NCBI RefSeq assembly: GCF_000384135.1
Contig: NZ_KB913028.1
Span: forward strand, 1,019,351-1,083,350
DNA: 64,000 bases
Direction: 5' to 3'
Source: Succinispira mobilis DSM 6222
GTDB lineage: Bacteria > Bacillota > Negativicutes > Acidaminococcales > Succinispiraceae
Shown here: one piece after another, positions 15,588 through 40,132 of the stretch
Layout of the letters: each line of letters begins with the position of its first letter
Numbering within the stretch: position 1 is the stretch's first letter
Program-made: the position numbers and the translations under genes
The notes under the pieces: model-generated
Databases searched by the model: none
The model's input: the letters and a program-made list of their open reading frames with translations, nothing else
What the model was told of the DNA's origin: nothing

Positions 15588-15971
15588 TTAACCGATTTCT
15601 CCTGCTTGCTCGGTCCCACGAGTACAGATAAGTTTGTTTGTAGCATCTACCATAGCAACTTTAGGCTGAAAAGTTGTGGCTTGTTCTTCACTCATTAGCG
15701 CATAGGCAATTATTATTACTGTGTCACCTACATGAACTAAACGTGCGGCAGCACCGTTTAAGCAAATTACGCCTGAATTTCGTTCACCGGCAATAACATA
15801 TGTTTCTAAACGATTACCATTATTGTTATTAACTATTTGTACTTTTTCTCCAGGAAGTATCCCAGAAGCTTCGAGAAGGGTTTGGTCAATAGTAACACTG
15901 CCCATGTAGTTTAAATTTGCCTCAGTTACTGTGGCACGATGAATTTTACCTTTGAAAATAGTAAGTAGCAT
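15588..15971 (-). CDS. panD: aspartate 1-decarboxylase precursor
   Basis: This pyruvoyl enzyme makes beta-alanine from aspartate for pantothenate. The 127-residue precursor has the self-cleavage site Gly24-Ser25 in NYMGSVTID, which creates the pyruvoyl group on the alpha chain. [21 protein letters not shown] is the conserved C-terminal block. The start is 1 bp after the panC stop, and its GGAGG site lies within panC. It is the last gene of the pantothenate operon. Confidence 0.96.
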
Positions 15972-15972
15972 A

Positions 15973-16824
15973 TTAAGCCTCCAAAATTATATTATCGATT
16001 AATCGAGTTTTTCCAAAATACACAGCTACAGCTAAGAGATTGCTTGCTTGCATTGGATTTGTGCAGCAGGTTAAATCTGGTAATTGCCAAATTTCCACAT
16101 AATCTACTGTGGCCAGTTTTTCCGTGGCGATGTTATTCAACACAAGGGTTAAGATTTTTTCTGGATTACGTTCACCTTGAGAAAATGCGCTTTGAGCTAA
16201 TTGTAGGCTAGTAGATAAAACTAAGGCGGCAGCTCTTTCAGAAGTTGATAAATAAATATTTCTAGAACTTAGGGCTAAACCATCGCTTTCACGAATGATA
16301 GGTAAAACTATGAGTTCTAAATCAAACATTAGATCGCGCACCATTTTTTTTAGAACTTGAACTTGCTGTGCATCTTTTTGTCCAAAATAAGCGCGAGTAG
16401 GTTTAATAATATTAAAAAGTTTGCTAACTACAGTAGTGACGCCGCGAAAATGGATAGGACGTGATTTTCCACATAAAACTTTAGTGATATCACCAGTTAC
16501 TTCTACCCAAGTTGGCTCACCGTCAGGATAGAGCTCAGCAACATCAGGATAAAAAATAATTTGCGCCCCATGTGCTGAGGCCAGTTGTTTATCTGCCTCA
16601 AAGGTTCGAGGATATTTAGCAAGATCTTCATTAGGCGCAAATTGAGTAGGATTGACAAAAATGCTCACAACAGTTATGTCGTCTCTAGCGCTTGAAGCCG
16701 CAATTAAAGAGGCATGTCCAGCATGGAGAGCACCCATGGTTGGCACTAAGCCGATACTTTTTCCACTAGTACGAGCTTGGGTTAAAATAGCTCGTATTTC
16801 ATTAATCTTTGTGCAAACTTTCAT
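15973..16824 (-). CDS. panC: pantothenate synthetase
   Basis: This enzyme joins pantoate and beta-alanine with ATP. It has 283 residues, with the nucleotidyl-transferase HIGH-like motif [14 protein letters not shown] near the N terminus, [18 protein letters not shown], the central FGQKDAQQ and the KMSKS-like region with DGLALSSRN. Its start follows AAGAGG, 12 bp after panB, and its 3' end abuts panD. Confidence 0.96.
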
Positions 16825-16836
16825 AAAAAACCTCTT

Positions 16837-17670
16837 TTAATATAATTTTTCTAAAACTTCATCTTGCATACTAAAAGTATGTTCGGTAGCAGGAAAAGTT
16901 CTAGTTTGAACATCATTAATATATTCTTGAGTAGCTGTGAAAATTTCTTGTTGTAAATTTCGATATTTTTTTACAAATTTAGGGGTGAATTCAGTATTTA
17001 AGCCTAGAAGGTCATTACAAACTAAAACTTGACCATCACAATTATTCCCAGCACCAATGCCAATAGTAGGGATGTTAACACTTTCAGTTATTTTTAGAGC
17101 TAATTGGTGAGGAATACACTCTAAGACTAGAGCAAATACGCCTGCGGTTGCTAAAGCCTGTGCGTCTTGAAGTATTTTTTGCGCAGCGCTTAAGGTTTTG
17201 CCTTGGACTTTAAAGCCACCTAATTGATTTACAGATTGGGGAGTTAAGCCTAAATGTCCAATTACGGGAATGCCACTTTGAACGAGTTTTTCAATCGTGG
17301 CCGTGATTTCTGCACCGCCTTCAAGTTTAACGGCGTGTGCGCCAGCTTCTTTGACTAACCGTCCAGCGTTTATTAGAGCTTGTTCTGTGCTCACTTGATA
17401 ACTCATAAACGGCATATCGGCAACCACCAACGTGCGACTACAAGCTCTAGTAACAGCCTTGGTATGATGAATCATATCTTCCATTGTAACTGGTAAAGTG
17501 GAAGAATAGCCAAGGATAACATTACCTAGTGAATCACCGACTAGAATCATATCGATGCCAGCTTGGTCGAAAATTTTAGCAAAAGCATAATCATAGGCGG
17601 TTATCATAGTTAAGGGCTTTATTCCTTTAGAATTTTTTATTGTGCTAGTTGTAACAATTGAATTAGACAT
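16837..17670 (-). CDS. panB: 3-methyl-2-oxobutanoate hydroxymethyltransferase
   Basis: This enzyme makes ketopantoate from 2-oxoisovalerate with methylene-tetrahydrofolate. The 277-residue TIM-barrel protein has MITAYDYAFAKIFDQAGID, the metal-binding VGDSLGNVILGY, HLGLTPQSVNQLGGFKVQG and IGIGAGNNCDGQVLV. AAGGAG precedes ATG 17670. It is the second gene of the pan operon, 11 bp after the DUF2520 gene. Its substrate 2-oxoisovalerate is shared with the leucine genes at 1-7.5 kb. Confidence 0.96.
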   Translation of the reverse strand: MSNSIVTTSTIKNSKGIKPLTMITAYDYAFAKIFDQAGIDMILVGDSLGNVILGYSSTLPVTMEDMIHHTKAVTRACSRTLVVADMPFMSYQVSTEQALINAGRLVKEAGAHAVKLEGGAEITATIEKLVQSGIPVIGHLGLTPQSVNQLGGFKVQGKTLSAAQKILQDAQALATAGVFALVLECIPHQLALKITESVNIPTIGIGAGNNCDGQVLVCNDLLGLNTEFTPKFVKKYRNLQQEIFTATQEYINDVQTRTFPATEHTFSMQDEVLEKLY

Positions 17671-17681
17671 TAATAATCTCC

Positions 17682-18524
17682 TTAAATTTTATTGTTTAAT
17701 AAATTTCTGAGCTCTAGGTAGTTATTGTCAGTAATTGTACCATTTGCCTTAGCTATATCTAAGGTTTTTAAACCGAGTAAACAATACAGATGTTGATATT
17801 TATCTGGTAAAACTTCTAGGTGTTGGGAAATAGTACTACTATCACCGCGACTTAGAGGCCCAGTTAAAGCTGAGGCTGTGTTTTTAGCTCTTTCAATATT
17901 GTGGACAGTGCTTTGAAGCAGTCCAAATAAAGCTTCGCGAGGAATAGACCATTTCATAAAAATGTCTTCAGCGATACAAGTTAAACTAACTAAGTAGTTT
18001 GATAAAATGCAAGCCGCTGCGTGATAGAGAGGTTTGTCATTTGCCGGTACATGTATAGGGACAGCGTTTAAGGTGTGAGCTAGTTTGGTTGCGATATTTA
18101 AGCTACTTTGTTCACCATCAATAGCGACATAAGTATTTTCTAAGCTAGTAGTATTTTCAGTAAAAGCCTGCAGAGGATGAAAGCAGCCAATATTACTTGT
18201 ATGAAGAGGCTGTAAGGCATCTAGATTTTGGCTACCGCTACAGTGAAAAAAATATTGATTTTTGTTGTTATAATTTAATGTAGCAATTTTTTGGGCTAGA
18301 GTGGTTATTAAGTTATCAGGAACTGTTAAAAAGATAATATCTGCCTCGAATAATAAAGTTTCTAGATTATCATAATACCTTAGTTGAAGCGCTTGTACGA
18401 TATTTTTACCTTTGTCGCATTCTTTATCAAAAACACCAACCAAATTCCAAGTTGTATTTTTTAAGGCCTTTGCTAGAGTTTGTCCTAGTTTTCCAAAACC
18501 GATTATTGCGATTTTTTGGTTCAT
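17682..18524 (-). CDS. Rossmann-fold/DUF2520 oxidoreductase, candidate ketopantoate reductase
   Basis: This 280-residue protein has an N-terminal NAD(P)-binding GFGKLG motif (residues 9-14), then the two-domain layout of the Rossmann-like plus DUF2520 family (FHPLQAF, then PLYHAAACILSNYLVSL in the helical domain). As first gene of a panB-panC-panD operon that lacks panE, it is well placed to reduce ketopantoate to pantoate. DUF2520-type proteins have been linked to this step in other bacteria, but here the role is inferred from context. It is separated from the upstream terminator hairpin only by its own ribosome site (AAGGAG). Confidence 0.8.
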   Translation of the reverse strand: MNQKIAIIGFGKLGQTLAKALKNTTWNLVGVFDKECDKGKNIVQALQLRYYDNLETLLFEADIIFLTVPDNLITTLAQKIATLNYNNKNQYFFHCSGSQNLDALQPLHTSNIGCFHPLQAFTENTTSLENTYVAIDGEQSSLNIATKLAHTLNAVPIHVPANDKPLYHAAACILSNYLVSLTCIAEDIFMKWSIPREALFGLLQSTVHNIERAKNTASALTGPLSRGDSSTISQHLEVLPDKYQHLYCLLGLKTLDIAKANGTITDNNYLELRNLLNNKI

Positions 18525-18550
18525 TAAATTTTCTCCTTAGAAATTAAAAA

Positions 18551-18720
18551 TAAAAAAACGCCTCTCTAGAAAGAGAGGCGTGAATAATCACAGGAAAAAG
18601 AAACACTAAGATAAGTGTGCTTTATTGTGCCGTCTCGGTCTAGTCTGATCCAAGCGGTATTAAAATTTTCAAATAGAATACTAGCTAGTATGTAAACTTC
18701 TAAAAAGATAGCCTCACACA
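18551..18720 (-). promoter_or_regulatory. transcribed leader with attenuator in front of the pan operon
   Basis: On the minus strand an RNA of about 170 nt would run from ~18720 to the T tract at 18558-18551. It ends in a 10-bp hairpin (ACGCCTCTCT, 18581-18572, with 18567-18558). Only about 26 bp separate that terminator from the operon's start codon, and they are filled by the ribosome site, so the operon must be transcribed through it. Inside are a hairpin with a bulged A (18657-18630) and a 5' strand, GTGTGAGGC (18719-18711). That strand can pair either with CACAC (18619-18615) or with GCCTC of the terminator. This looks like a riboswitch or attenuator; no known class was recognised with certainty. 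Confidence 0.6.
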
Positions 18721-18726
18721 AGTAAG

Positions 18727-18755
18727 ATAATAGCATAAAAAAAAAATGAAGGCAA
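18727..18755 (-). promoter_or_regulatory. promoter of the pan leader
   Basis: On the minus strand, TTGCCT (18755-18750) and TATTAT (18732-18727) are separated by 17 bp, giving a start near 18720. Confidence 0.55.
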
Positions 18756-18861: not shown

Positions 18862-18891
18862 TTTGCGTATTATATGAAAATTAAATAAAAA

Positions 18892-19018
18892 AATAAACAG
18901 GAGCTAGAGATTTTAGCTAGAGAAAATTGGTGCAAAGCCAATGCGGTCCCGCCACTGTAAAGTTTTAAGTTTAAATAGCAGAAAAAACTTAAAACAGAGT
19001 CAGAACTAACTGTTTATT
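18892..19018 (+). promoter_or_regulatory. cobalamin (B12) riboswitch
   Basis: The conserved core is present: TTGGTGCAAAGCCAA (P4 region), GCGGTCCCGCCACTGTAA (P5/L5) and GAGTCAGAA near the 3' side. The closing stem AATAAACAG (18892-18900) pairs with CTGTTTATT (19010-19018). It lies ahead of a strong terminator, so the likely mode is transcription termination on cobalamin binding. Confidence 0.9.
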
Positions 19019-19075
19019 AAAACCTTGACTTGCGAGCGACAGGAAAAGAGGGTTTTTTAGTGCACATAAAAACTA

Positions 19076-19133: not shown

Positions 19134-19226
19134 ATGTTTTTATTATCAACAAGATTTAGTGGAGCTAGAAATAAAAGTTTTATTTTTGAGAATTTTATCT
19201 TAGCTAAATTCAAGTCAGCAAAATGA
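19134..19226 (+). CDS. small ORF, possible coupled leader peptide (30 aa)
   Basis: ATG 19134 sits 6 bp after a strong GAGGAAGGTG site and opens 30 codons (MFLLSTRFSGARNKSFIFEN, then ten more) that end TGA at 19226. The stop overlaps an in-frame start for the next gene (ATGA, 19223). It was not recognised as a family. The ribosome site is better than that of the secreted protein, so it may be a leader peptide used for translational coupling. It could also be chance; coding evidence is limited to the site and the overlap. Confidence 0.35.
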   Translation: MFLLSTRFSGARNKSFIFENFILAKFKSAK

Positions 19227-19255
19227 TACATTTAATTAGATTAGGGGTGTTGATT

Positions 19256-19765
19256 ATGAAGAAAATATTGTTGTTAGGCGTATTATTGTTAGTATTAAGC
19301 TTAGGTAAAACAGTATCTGCAGCTACGGGTGTAGTTAATGGCGAAGGCTTAGATTGGGAAATGTCGATTTTACCCAAACCTACTCTAGAAGAAATTGAAA
19401 AAGAACGTTGGCAGCCAATTTTAGAAAATGATATAGGAATTTACACTTATGCTAATGACAGTATCGTTAAAGAGCATAAATTGGTGAGCGTATTAGTTAA
19501 AACGGTGTTTACGAATAAAGAAGTTCTAGAGCGTTTAAATAAGCAATATGCAAGTAAATTAGCAGGTGAAGATATAATAACCTATTGTCAGTTAACGATA
19601 AAATTTGATGTTGCGAAAAAAATGTATCTGGTGGAAAAAACGGAGATTTTTGCTGGACAAAATAATTTGATTGCTAGTAAAGAAGTAGTAGGCAATAACC
19701 GTCAATTTGCCACAGTTCCTAAAAATAGTTTTGCGGAAGCCATGTTAGAAATATTGTTAAAATAG
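19256..19765 (+). CDS. small secreted protein of unknown function under B12 riboswitch
   Basis: This 169-residue protein has a clear Sec signal peptide (MKKILLLGVLLLVLSLGKTV, cleavage likely after VSA). The mature part contains VKTVF, a YCQLTIKFD strand, a MYLVEKTEIF strand and a C-terminal VPKNSFAEAMLEILLK. That strand-strand-helix pattern loosely recalls surface-adhesin-E-like exported proteins, but the resemblance is weak. ATG 19256 follows AGGGGTG; a longer start at 19223 overlaps the small upstream ORF. Control by cobalamin is odd for such a gene and suggests a link to B12 uptake or a B12-independent alternative function. It is followed by a terminator. Confidence 0.7.
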   Translation: MKKILLLGVLLLVLSLGKTVSAATGVVNGEGLDWEMSILPKPTLEEIEKERWQPILENDIGIYTYANDSIVKEHKLVSVLVKTVFTNKEVLERLNKQYASKLAGEDIITYCQLTIKFDVAKKMYLVEKTEIFAGQNNLIASKEVVGNNRQFATVPKNSFAEAMLEILLK

Positions 19766-23401: not shown

Positions 23402-23647
23402 TATTGAACTGTAAAATCTGAGGACTTAGAGTAGTAGGTGAGAAGTAGCTTTTAGAAAGTTAGCGGTTGATGCAAGCTAATACTACCAAAACTGAACTCG
23501 CTAAGGAAGAGCTAATATGAAAGAAAGTAGTTTTAGCCGTTAGCTAGCGTTAATAGCAATTGAGAGGATGGTTGTTTGCAACTGTCAATCAGGGTGGTAC
23601 CGCGATATAAAAATCGTCCCTGGCACATAGCCATGGGATTTTTTCTT
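23402..23647 (+). promoter_or_regulatory. T-box riboswitch of leuS
   Basis: The hallmark T-box AGGGTGGTACCGCG is at 23591-23604, followed by a terminator (TCCCTGGC, 23617-23624, with GCCATGGGA, 23629-23637, then T residues). The 5' half forms the long stem I, and the segment AACTGAACTCGC near 23492 offers CTC as specifier codon, matching leucine. Uncharged tRNA-Leu would pair with the specifier and the T-box bulge to prevent termination. It fills the 410-bp gap before leuS, together with the promoters. Confidence 0.92.
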
Positions 23648-40017: not shown

Positions 40018-40022
40018 TGATT

Positions 40023-40102
40023 TAACTAGGGGTGCTTTATGCTGAGAGAGTAATTACTCAACCCTTGAACCTGATGTGGTTAGGACCACCGTAGGGAAGT
40101 TA
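40023..40102 (+). promoter_or_regulatory. TPP (THI-box) riboswitch
   Basis: Conserved elements are in order: TAGGGGTGCTTTATGCTGAGAGAG (core GGGGTGC and CTGAGAGAG), ACCCTTGAACCTGATGTGG and GGGAAGTTA. P1 is closed by TAACT (40023-40027) with AGTTA (40098-40102). It starts 6 bp after the ECF stop codon and controls thiC. Confidence 0.95.
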
Positions 40103-40132
40103 GCAATGATTTAAGTTTAACTTAGAGTCTAG

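Follow-up and report, generated by a model that had tools for sequence, protein, structure and literature searches.

Locus and operon organisation

The locus lies in a 64,000-nucleotide stretch of the Succinispira mobilis DSM 6222 genome (hereafter, the window) and holds, on the minus strand, a pantothenate operon in the order DUF2520-panB-panC-panD, preceded by a leader of ~170 nt that runs from a sigma-70-type promoter to an intrinsic terminator (Table 1). Transcription is expected to start at ~18720 and the ATG of the first gene occupies 18524–18522. The gap between the T tract of the terminator and the ribosome site is ~13 nt, and no promoter-like site was found within it. The leader as a whole folds more stably than its dinucleotide shuffles (z = −4.45; none of 200 as good), and terminator-like sites occur in shuffled sequence at a mean of 0.2. 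Among relatives, a −10-like hexamer (≥5 of 6 positions) was present within 40 nt upstream of the RNA motif described below at 54 of 72 loci, compared to 61 of 236 background windows.

Most of this architecture had been anticipated by a sequence-only reading of the same DNA. The promoter that it proposed holds, with the addition of a TG ahead of the −10 element, as do the ~170-nt leader with its strong intrinsic terminator and the lack of room for a second promoter behind it. All of the coordinates that it gave were correct (GTGTG, 18719–18715; CACAC, 18619–18615; a bulged-A hairpin, 18657–18630; GAGGC, 18715–18711; GCCTC, 18579–18575). Its central claim, a transcription attenuator before the pantothenate operon with the terminator as control point, is also supported, with an intrinsic terminator located between the promoter and the first gene and kept in relatives.

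The DUF2520 Rossmann-fold protein encoded by the first gene is, judged from its context, a good candidate for a ketopantoate reductase, because a profile search of this genome returned no PanE above cut-off and the corresponding motifs in Bacilli precede panE (locus L326) or DUF2520-like proteins (L333, L336), as assigned by sequence resemblance.

Table 1. Features of the pantothenate operon and its leader, in window coordinates.
Feature	Position	Strand	Basis
Promoter TTGCCT-17-TATTAT, sigma-70-type, TG before −10	18727–18755	minus	Sequence scan
pan motif RF01749, whole match	18626–18717	minus	Covariance model, 42.5 bits
pan hairpin 1: GTGAGGCTATC / loop / GAAGTTTACAT, bulged A18709 and A18693	18690–18717	minus	Rfam alignment
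Alternative antiterminator strand GAGGC (hairpin 1 5' strand)	18711–18715	minus	Pairs with GCCTC 18579–18575
pan hairpin 2: CCGCTTGGATC / loop / GACCGAGACGG, bulged A18649 and A18633	18630–18657	minus	Rfam alignment, −10.3 kcal/mol
Conserved candidate antiterminator strand (hairpin 2 3' strand and first tail base)	18629–18641	minus	Pairs with 18579–18568
Intrinsic terminator ACGCCTCTCTTTCTAGAGAGGCGT then TTTTTTATTT	18558–18581, T tract 18557–18552	minus	−17.2 kcal/mol
Ribosome binding site AAGGAG	18533–18538	minus	Sequence
DUF2520 Rossmann-fold protein, candidate ketopantoate reductase	17682–18524	minus	Pfam PF10728, 2.8e-31
panB	16837–17670	minus	TIGR00222
panC	15973–16824	minus	TIGR00018
panD	15588–15971	minus	TIGR00223

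The leader is a member of the pan motif class

The leader is a new member of RF01749, the pan motif, an orphan regulatory RNA class. The match extends over the entire model (positions 1–92 of 92) and exceeds the gathering score of 36.2 bits (E = 5.4e-4 for the whole window), and it is the only copy of the motif in this genome. In its 2010 description by Weinberg et al., the motif is marked by bulged As, a tandem arrangement and an association with pan genes, and the passage of that paper devoted to it suggests a dimeric protein as the binder (PMC2864571). Likewise, the present leader has two tandem hairpins, both inside 18717–18630 and each with two bulged As (Table 1), and pan genes follow downstream. 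It departs from the typical motif, which has two conserved bulged As in each hairpin and precedes a panB/panC/panD operon (PMC2864571), in that unit 1 is AT-rich with several G-U or A-U pairs and the first gene is DUF2520.

Both hairpins covary among relatives. In hairpin 1, all 10 pairs are standard in this leader, and across the Negativicutes 93.1% of pairs are standard compared to 73.8% when the strands are dealt anew (0 of 500 shuffles), as counted by a sequence anchor that fits the divergent hairpin 1 of the Desulfuromonadia poorly; the anchor took the place of a MAFFT alignment in which the row of this leader was shifted. For hairpin 2, standard pairs make up 96.9% in relatives, with a covariation score of 0.390 compared to 0.214 for shuffled strands (0 of 500).

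Whether the leader belongs to the pan motif had been left as a question by the sequence-only reading, which proposed a covariance-model search; with RF01749 above its gathering score in that search and both hairpins covarying, the answer is yes. The hairpin that it placed at 18657–18630 is real, but contains two bulged As in place of one, and hairpin 1 had been missed. The resting fold that it suggested, in which the 5' end GTGTG pairs with CACAC, gives way to the local hairpin 1; at a single intermediate length the GTGTG/CACAC pairing does no more than equal the minimum free energy and, as a closing helix, it is borderline in relatives (z = −1.8, 194 of 5000).

Other Rfam families retrieved at a relaxed threshold (suhB, JA04, GcvB, PyrR and others) all scored below gathering, and mostly matched the terminator.

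Conservation of the terminator

The motif and the terminator were compared at 140 loci from the Negativicutes, 32 from the Desulfuromonadia and 31 from the Bacilli. A terminator followed within 133 nt of the motif at 130, 32 and 26 of these loci, respectively, against 20.7, 5.3 and 1.0 expected from shuffles. This order of motif, terminator and gene, kept in three classes, argues against a constitutive partial terminator with hairpins that merely protect or insulate the RNA and do not switch, as does the covariation of the antiterminator complementarity in the Negativicutes (described below), and such an arrangement is very unlikely. A terminator within the leader of a biosynthetic operon could also point to leader-peptide or tRNA-type attenuation; that explanation is extremely improbable, as the stretch from 18720 to the terminator contains no ATG and no candidate start codon with a ribosome site, and neither a T-box nor an amino-acid leader reaches threshold in the pan leader.

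A conserved candidate antiterminator strand in hairpin 2

At each locus, it was determined which upstream segment pairs best with the 5' arm and loop of the terminator. An exact-pattern scan of genome contigs for hairpin 2 is noisy, and only matches upstream of pan genes were used. Among 71 non-redundant leaders from the Negativicutes, the best partner was the 3' strand of hairpin 2 with its tail in 54 (~11 expected); it was likewise the 3' strand of hairpin 2 in the Desulfuromonadia (11 of 16; 2.7 expected) and the Bacilli (17 of 21; 3.9 expected). A typical pairing in the Bacilli joins GGGACGGARGA to CCUUCUGUCC, while outside the Bacilli GACGGAAGG pairs with CCUUUCGUC-like arms, and long complementary stretches occur in some loci (e.g., L285 and L287).

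Terminator arms were swapped between loci to tell co-variation from shared composition. In the Negativicutes, the 3' strand of hairpin 2 paired more stably with its own arm (−11.78 kcal/mol) than with swapped arms (−10.30 kcal/mol; z = −5.1, 0 of 2000). The two strands are purine-rich and pyrimidine-rich, so that their complementarity is partly compositional, an effect for which swapping is a partial control only. The signal also held within arm classes, inside the order of this organism (z = −3.0) and with one locus per genus (mean z = −4.6, 55 genera). In the Bacilli, where both strands barely vary, the swap test gave no signal, and in the Desulfuromonadia it reached only z = −1.4. Other candidate partners (the 5' and 3' strands of hairpin 1, the linker, the 5' strand of hairpin 2 and the region after the motif) were rejected, with no class-wide swap signal.

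In the present leader, the conserved strand can pair with the terminator arm (18641–18629 with 18579–18568, AGA..GAGA.GGC) at −11.6 kcal/mol (p = 0.024 vs shuffled strand). Alternatively, the switching strand here could be the GAGGC of hairpin 1 (18715–18711), in which case the ON state would cost hairpin 1 and spare hairpin 2. The GAGGC/GCCTC pairing is worth −9.8 kcal/mol (p = 0.013 vs shuffled strand) and gives this leader its intermediate of lowest free energy, with hairpin 2 left intact; in the predicted ensemble just before the 3' arm of the terminator is made, the 5' arm pairs with the hairpin 1 5' strand over an expected 5.5 nt and with hairpin 2 over an expected 0.06 nt, and forcing the hairpin 2 antiterminator pairing costs ~5 kcal/mol. 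The same strand of hairpin 1 is the dominant arm partner in 10 of the 71 Negativicutes leaders and gave a borderline swap result with one locus per genus (z = −1.85), but its swap test was z = −1.1 class-wide and z = −0.1 in the order of this organism, and the conserved partner lies in hairpin 2. A switch through hairpin 1 is possible in this leader, but unlikely.

Overall, of the two candidate strands for a mutually exclusive antiterminator that would overlap the sensor, that of hairpin 2 is conserved in the class and that of hairpin 1 is favoured by energy in this leader. The comparative and thermodynamic evidence disagree for this leader, and the comparative evidence was weighted more. Under either version, a folded pan motif means termination, because either antiterminator destroys one of the pan hairpins. 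The 5'-strand switch of the sequence-only reading (GAGGC with GCCTC) survives as a pairing that is better than chance and energetically favoured in this leader, and is not supported as a general mechanism. Of the helices for which it had proposed a covariation test in relatives, hairpin 2 covaries, and the GTGTG/CACAC and GAGGC/GCCTC pairings do not rise above the values given above.

Proposed mechanism

Membership in RF01749, both hairpins, the terminator, the order of motif and terminator in three classes and the complementarity of hairpin 2 to the terminator arm are computed results. The leader is probably a pan-motif transcription attenuator of the OFF type, with the 3' strand of hairpin 2 as the antiterminator; which way the control runs, whether there is an effector and what it is, and the use here of the same strand as in relatives are what we infer. 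Polymerase would start at ~18720 and make both bulged-A hairpins in tandem. An effector, metabolite or protein, that signals plentiful pantothenate or a later product would hold hairpin 2 closed, its 3' strand would remain occupied, the terminator would form and the operon would be OFF. With the effector scarce, hairpin 2 would open from its base, and its 3' strand and tail could invade the 5' arm of the terminator, so that the antiterminator forms and DUF2520-panB-panC-panD is transcribed.

The chances of a dimeric RNA-binding protein, and not a metabolite, as the effector are put at a little short of even. A protein was argued for from the simple tandem structure in the passage on the motif in PMC2864571, and is consistent with apical loops and a linker that vary in length and sequence among aligned motifs and with conservation at the bulged As and neighbouring pairs, a pattern that would be typical of protein sites. 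Conversely, the literature found names no protein, and the occurrence of the motif in the Bacilli, Negativicutes and Desulfuromonadia would need a widely shared binding protein.

An additional layer of translational control, in which hairpin 1 pairs with the ribosome site after read-through, is improbable. Hairpin 1 (18717–18690) can form 14 contiguous pairs with 18546–18533 (UCUUUUUAGAAGUU with AAUUUCUAAGGAGA); the pairing is part of the minimum-free-energy fold when this extends to the ribosome site, is worth −13.6 kcal/mol (p = 0.013 vs shuffled strand) and beats that of hairpin 1 from all 70 other loci. It is not conserved in relatives (z = −1.2), though, and the sequences are A/U-rich.

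In attenuation riboswitches of the OFF type, such as the TPP, FMN and SAM-I leaders, the 3' strand of the folded sensor otherwise pairs with the 5' arm of the terminator. The pan leader would share with these the use of the sensor 3' strand as antiterminator, but its sensor is a pair of small hairpins set apart by a variable linker, whereas those have one compact aptamer and a ligand. A choice between terminator and antiterminator would also be common to the pan leader and to the T-box leader of the window (23412–23624, plus strand), an ordinary one before leuS, though the pan leader itself has no T-box match.

Distribution and regulon

Of 300 genomes from the class of this organism, 168 carry the pan motif, as do 30 of 63 from its order, 57 of 117 from the class to which a Desulfuromonadales genome belongs and 119 of 200 from the class of Shouchella clausii. 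The first recognisable gene at the 140 Negativicutes loci was panC (n = 35), a PanS-like BASS transporter (n = 35), DUF2520 (n = 34), panB (n = 14), PanF with its DUF997 partner (n = 7), a birA-type gene (n = 5, a label from a short pattern that can be spurious), an ECF transporter S component (n = 5) or panD (n = 2), with three loci unassigned. Example identities were assigned by profile for PanS (NF047939) and PanF (TIGR02119), both below cut-off on fragments of 230 aa, and for DUF997, the ECF component (PF12822), BirA and type III pantothenate kinase. The motif and a terminator precede birA-coaX in two genomes, both from a single genus (L102/L344 and L122/L343).

Pantoate and pantothenate importers that are co-regulated with synthesis point to feedback from pantothenate or a later product. 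As pantothenate kinase consumes pantothenate, its presence in the regulon hints at a signal past pantothenate, towards CoA. Something downstream of pantothenate, possibly CoA, may thus be sensed, though this suggestion comes from a single genus. Coenzyme A was named in 2022 reviews as a conspicuously missing riboswitch ligand (PMC9971707, PMC10043782). It is quite a long shot that the missing natural riboswitch for coenzyme A, or for a late precursor of it, is the pan motif; if it were true, a CoA-type switch would shut down pantothenate synthesis and pantoate/pantothenate import at once, along with type III pantothenate kinase in one genus, and would act by withholding the antiterminator strand of hairpin 2.

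Divergent pan motifs occur before the ECF transporter S components at five loci. At these, the tail of the motif, GGAGG, is itself the ribosome site, 5–9 nt before the start codon, and there is no room for a terminator between the motif and the start, which suggests a translational variant of the pan motif. At one further locus, a pan match of 55 bits and a terminator precede a gene for a HAD-type acid phosphatase, outside the usual pantothenate set.

Relation to the literature

In itself, the leader adds one more case to an RNA class described in 2010. The relevant passage of PMC2864571 makes no mention of the antiterminator role proposed here, and the main texts of those open-access papers that were available yielded no ligand or mechanism for the pan motif. 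Transcriptome papers merely list the motif, and a study of CoA in B. subtilis (PMC11487621) does not mention a riboswitch. At the level of the class, the switching model is well supported and was not found in the accessible literature. The comparison adds this model to the pan class, with a hairpin 2 antiterminator that covaries in the Negativicutes and is present in the Bacilli and Desulfuromonadia, along with a wider regulon of PanS-like and PanF importers, an ECF transporter and birA-coaX. Together, the switching model and the wider regulon make the question of the ligand directly testable.

Neighbouring RNAs

Divergent from the pan leader, a Cobalamin riboswitch (RF00174) was identified at 18881–19028 on the plus strand (33.6 bits vs a gathering score of 31.5 bits). 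It is followed by an intrinsic-terminator-like sequence, CTCCCCTTTATAGCAAGGGGAGTTTTTTT, and then by an ORF (19223–19765) for which no Pfam match was found. An ordinary TPP riboswitch is located further along the window (40018–40114, plus strand).
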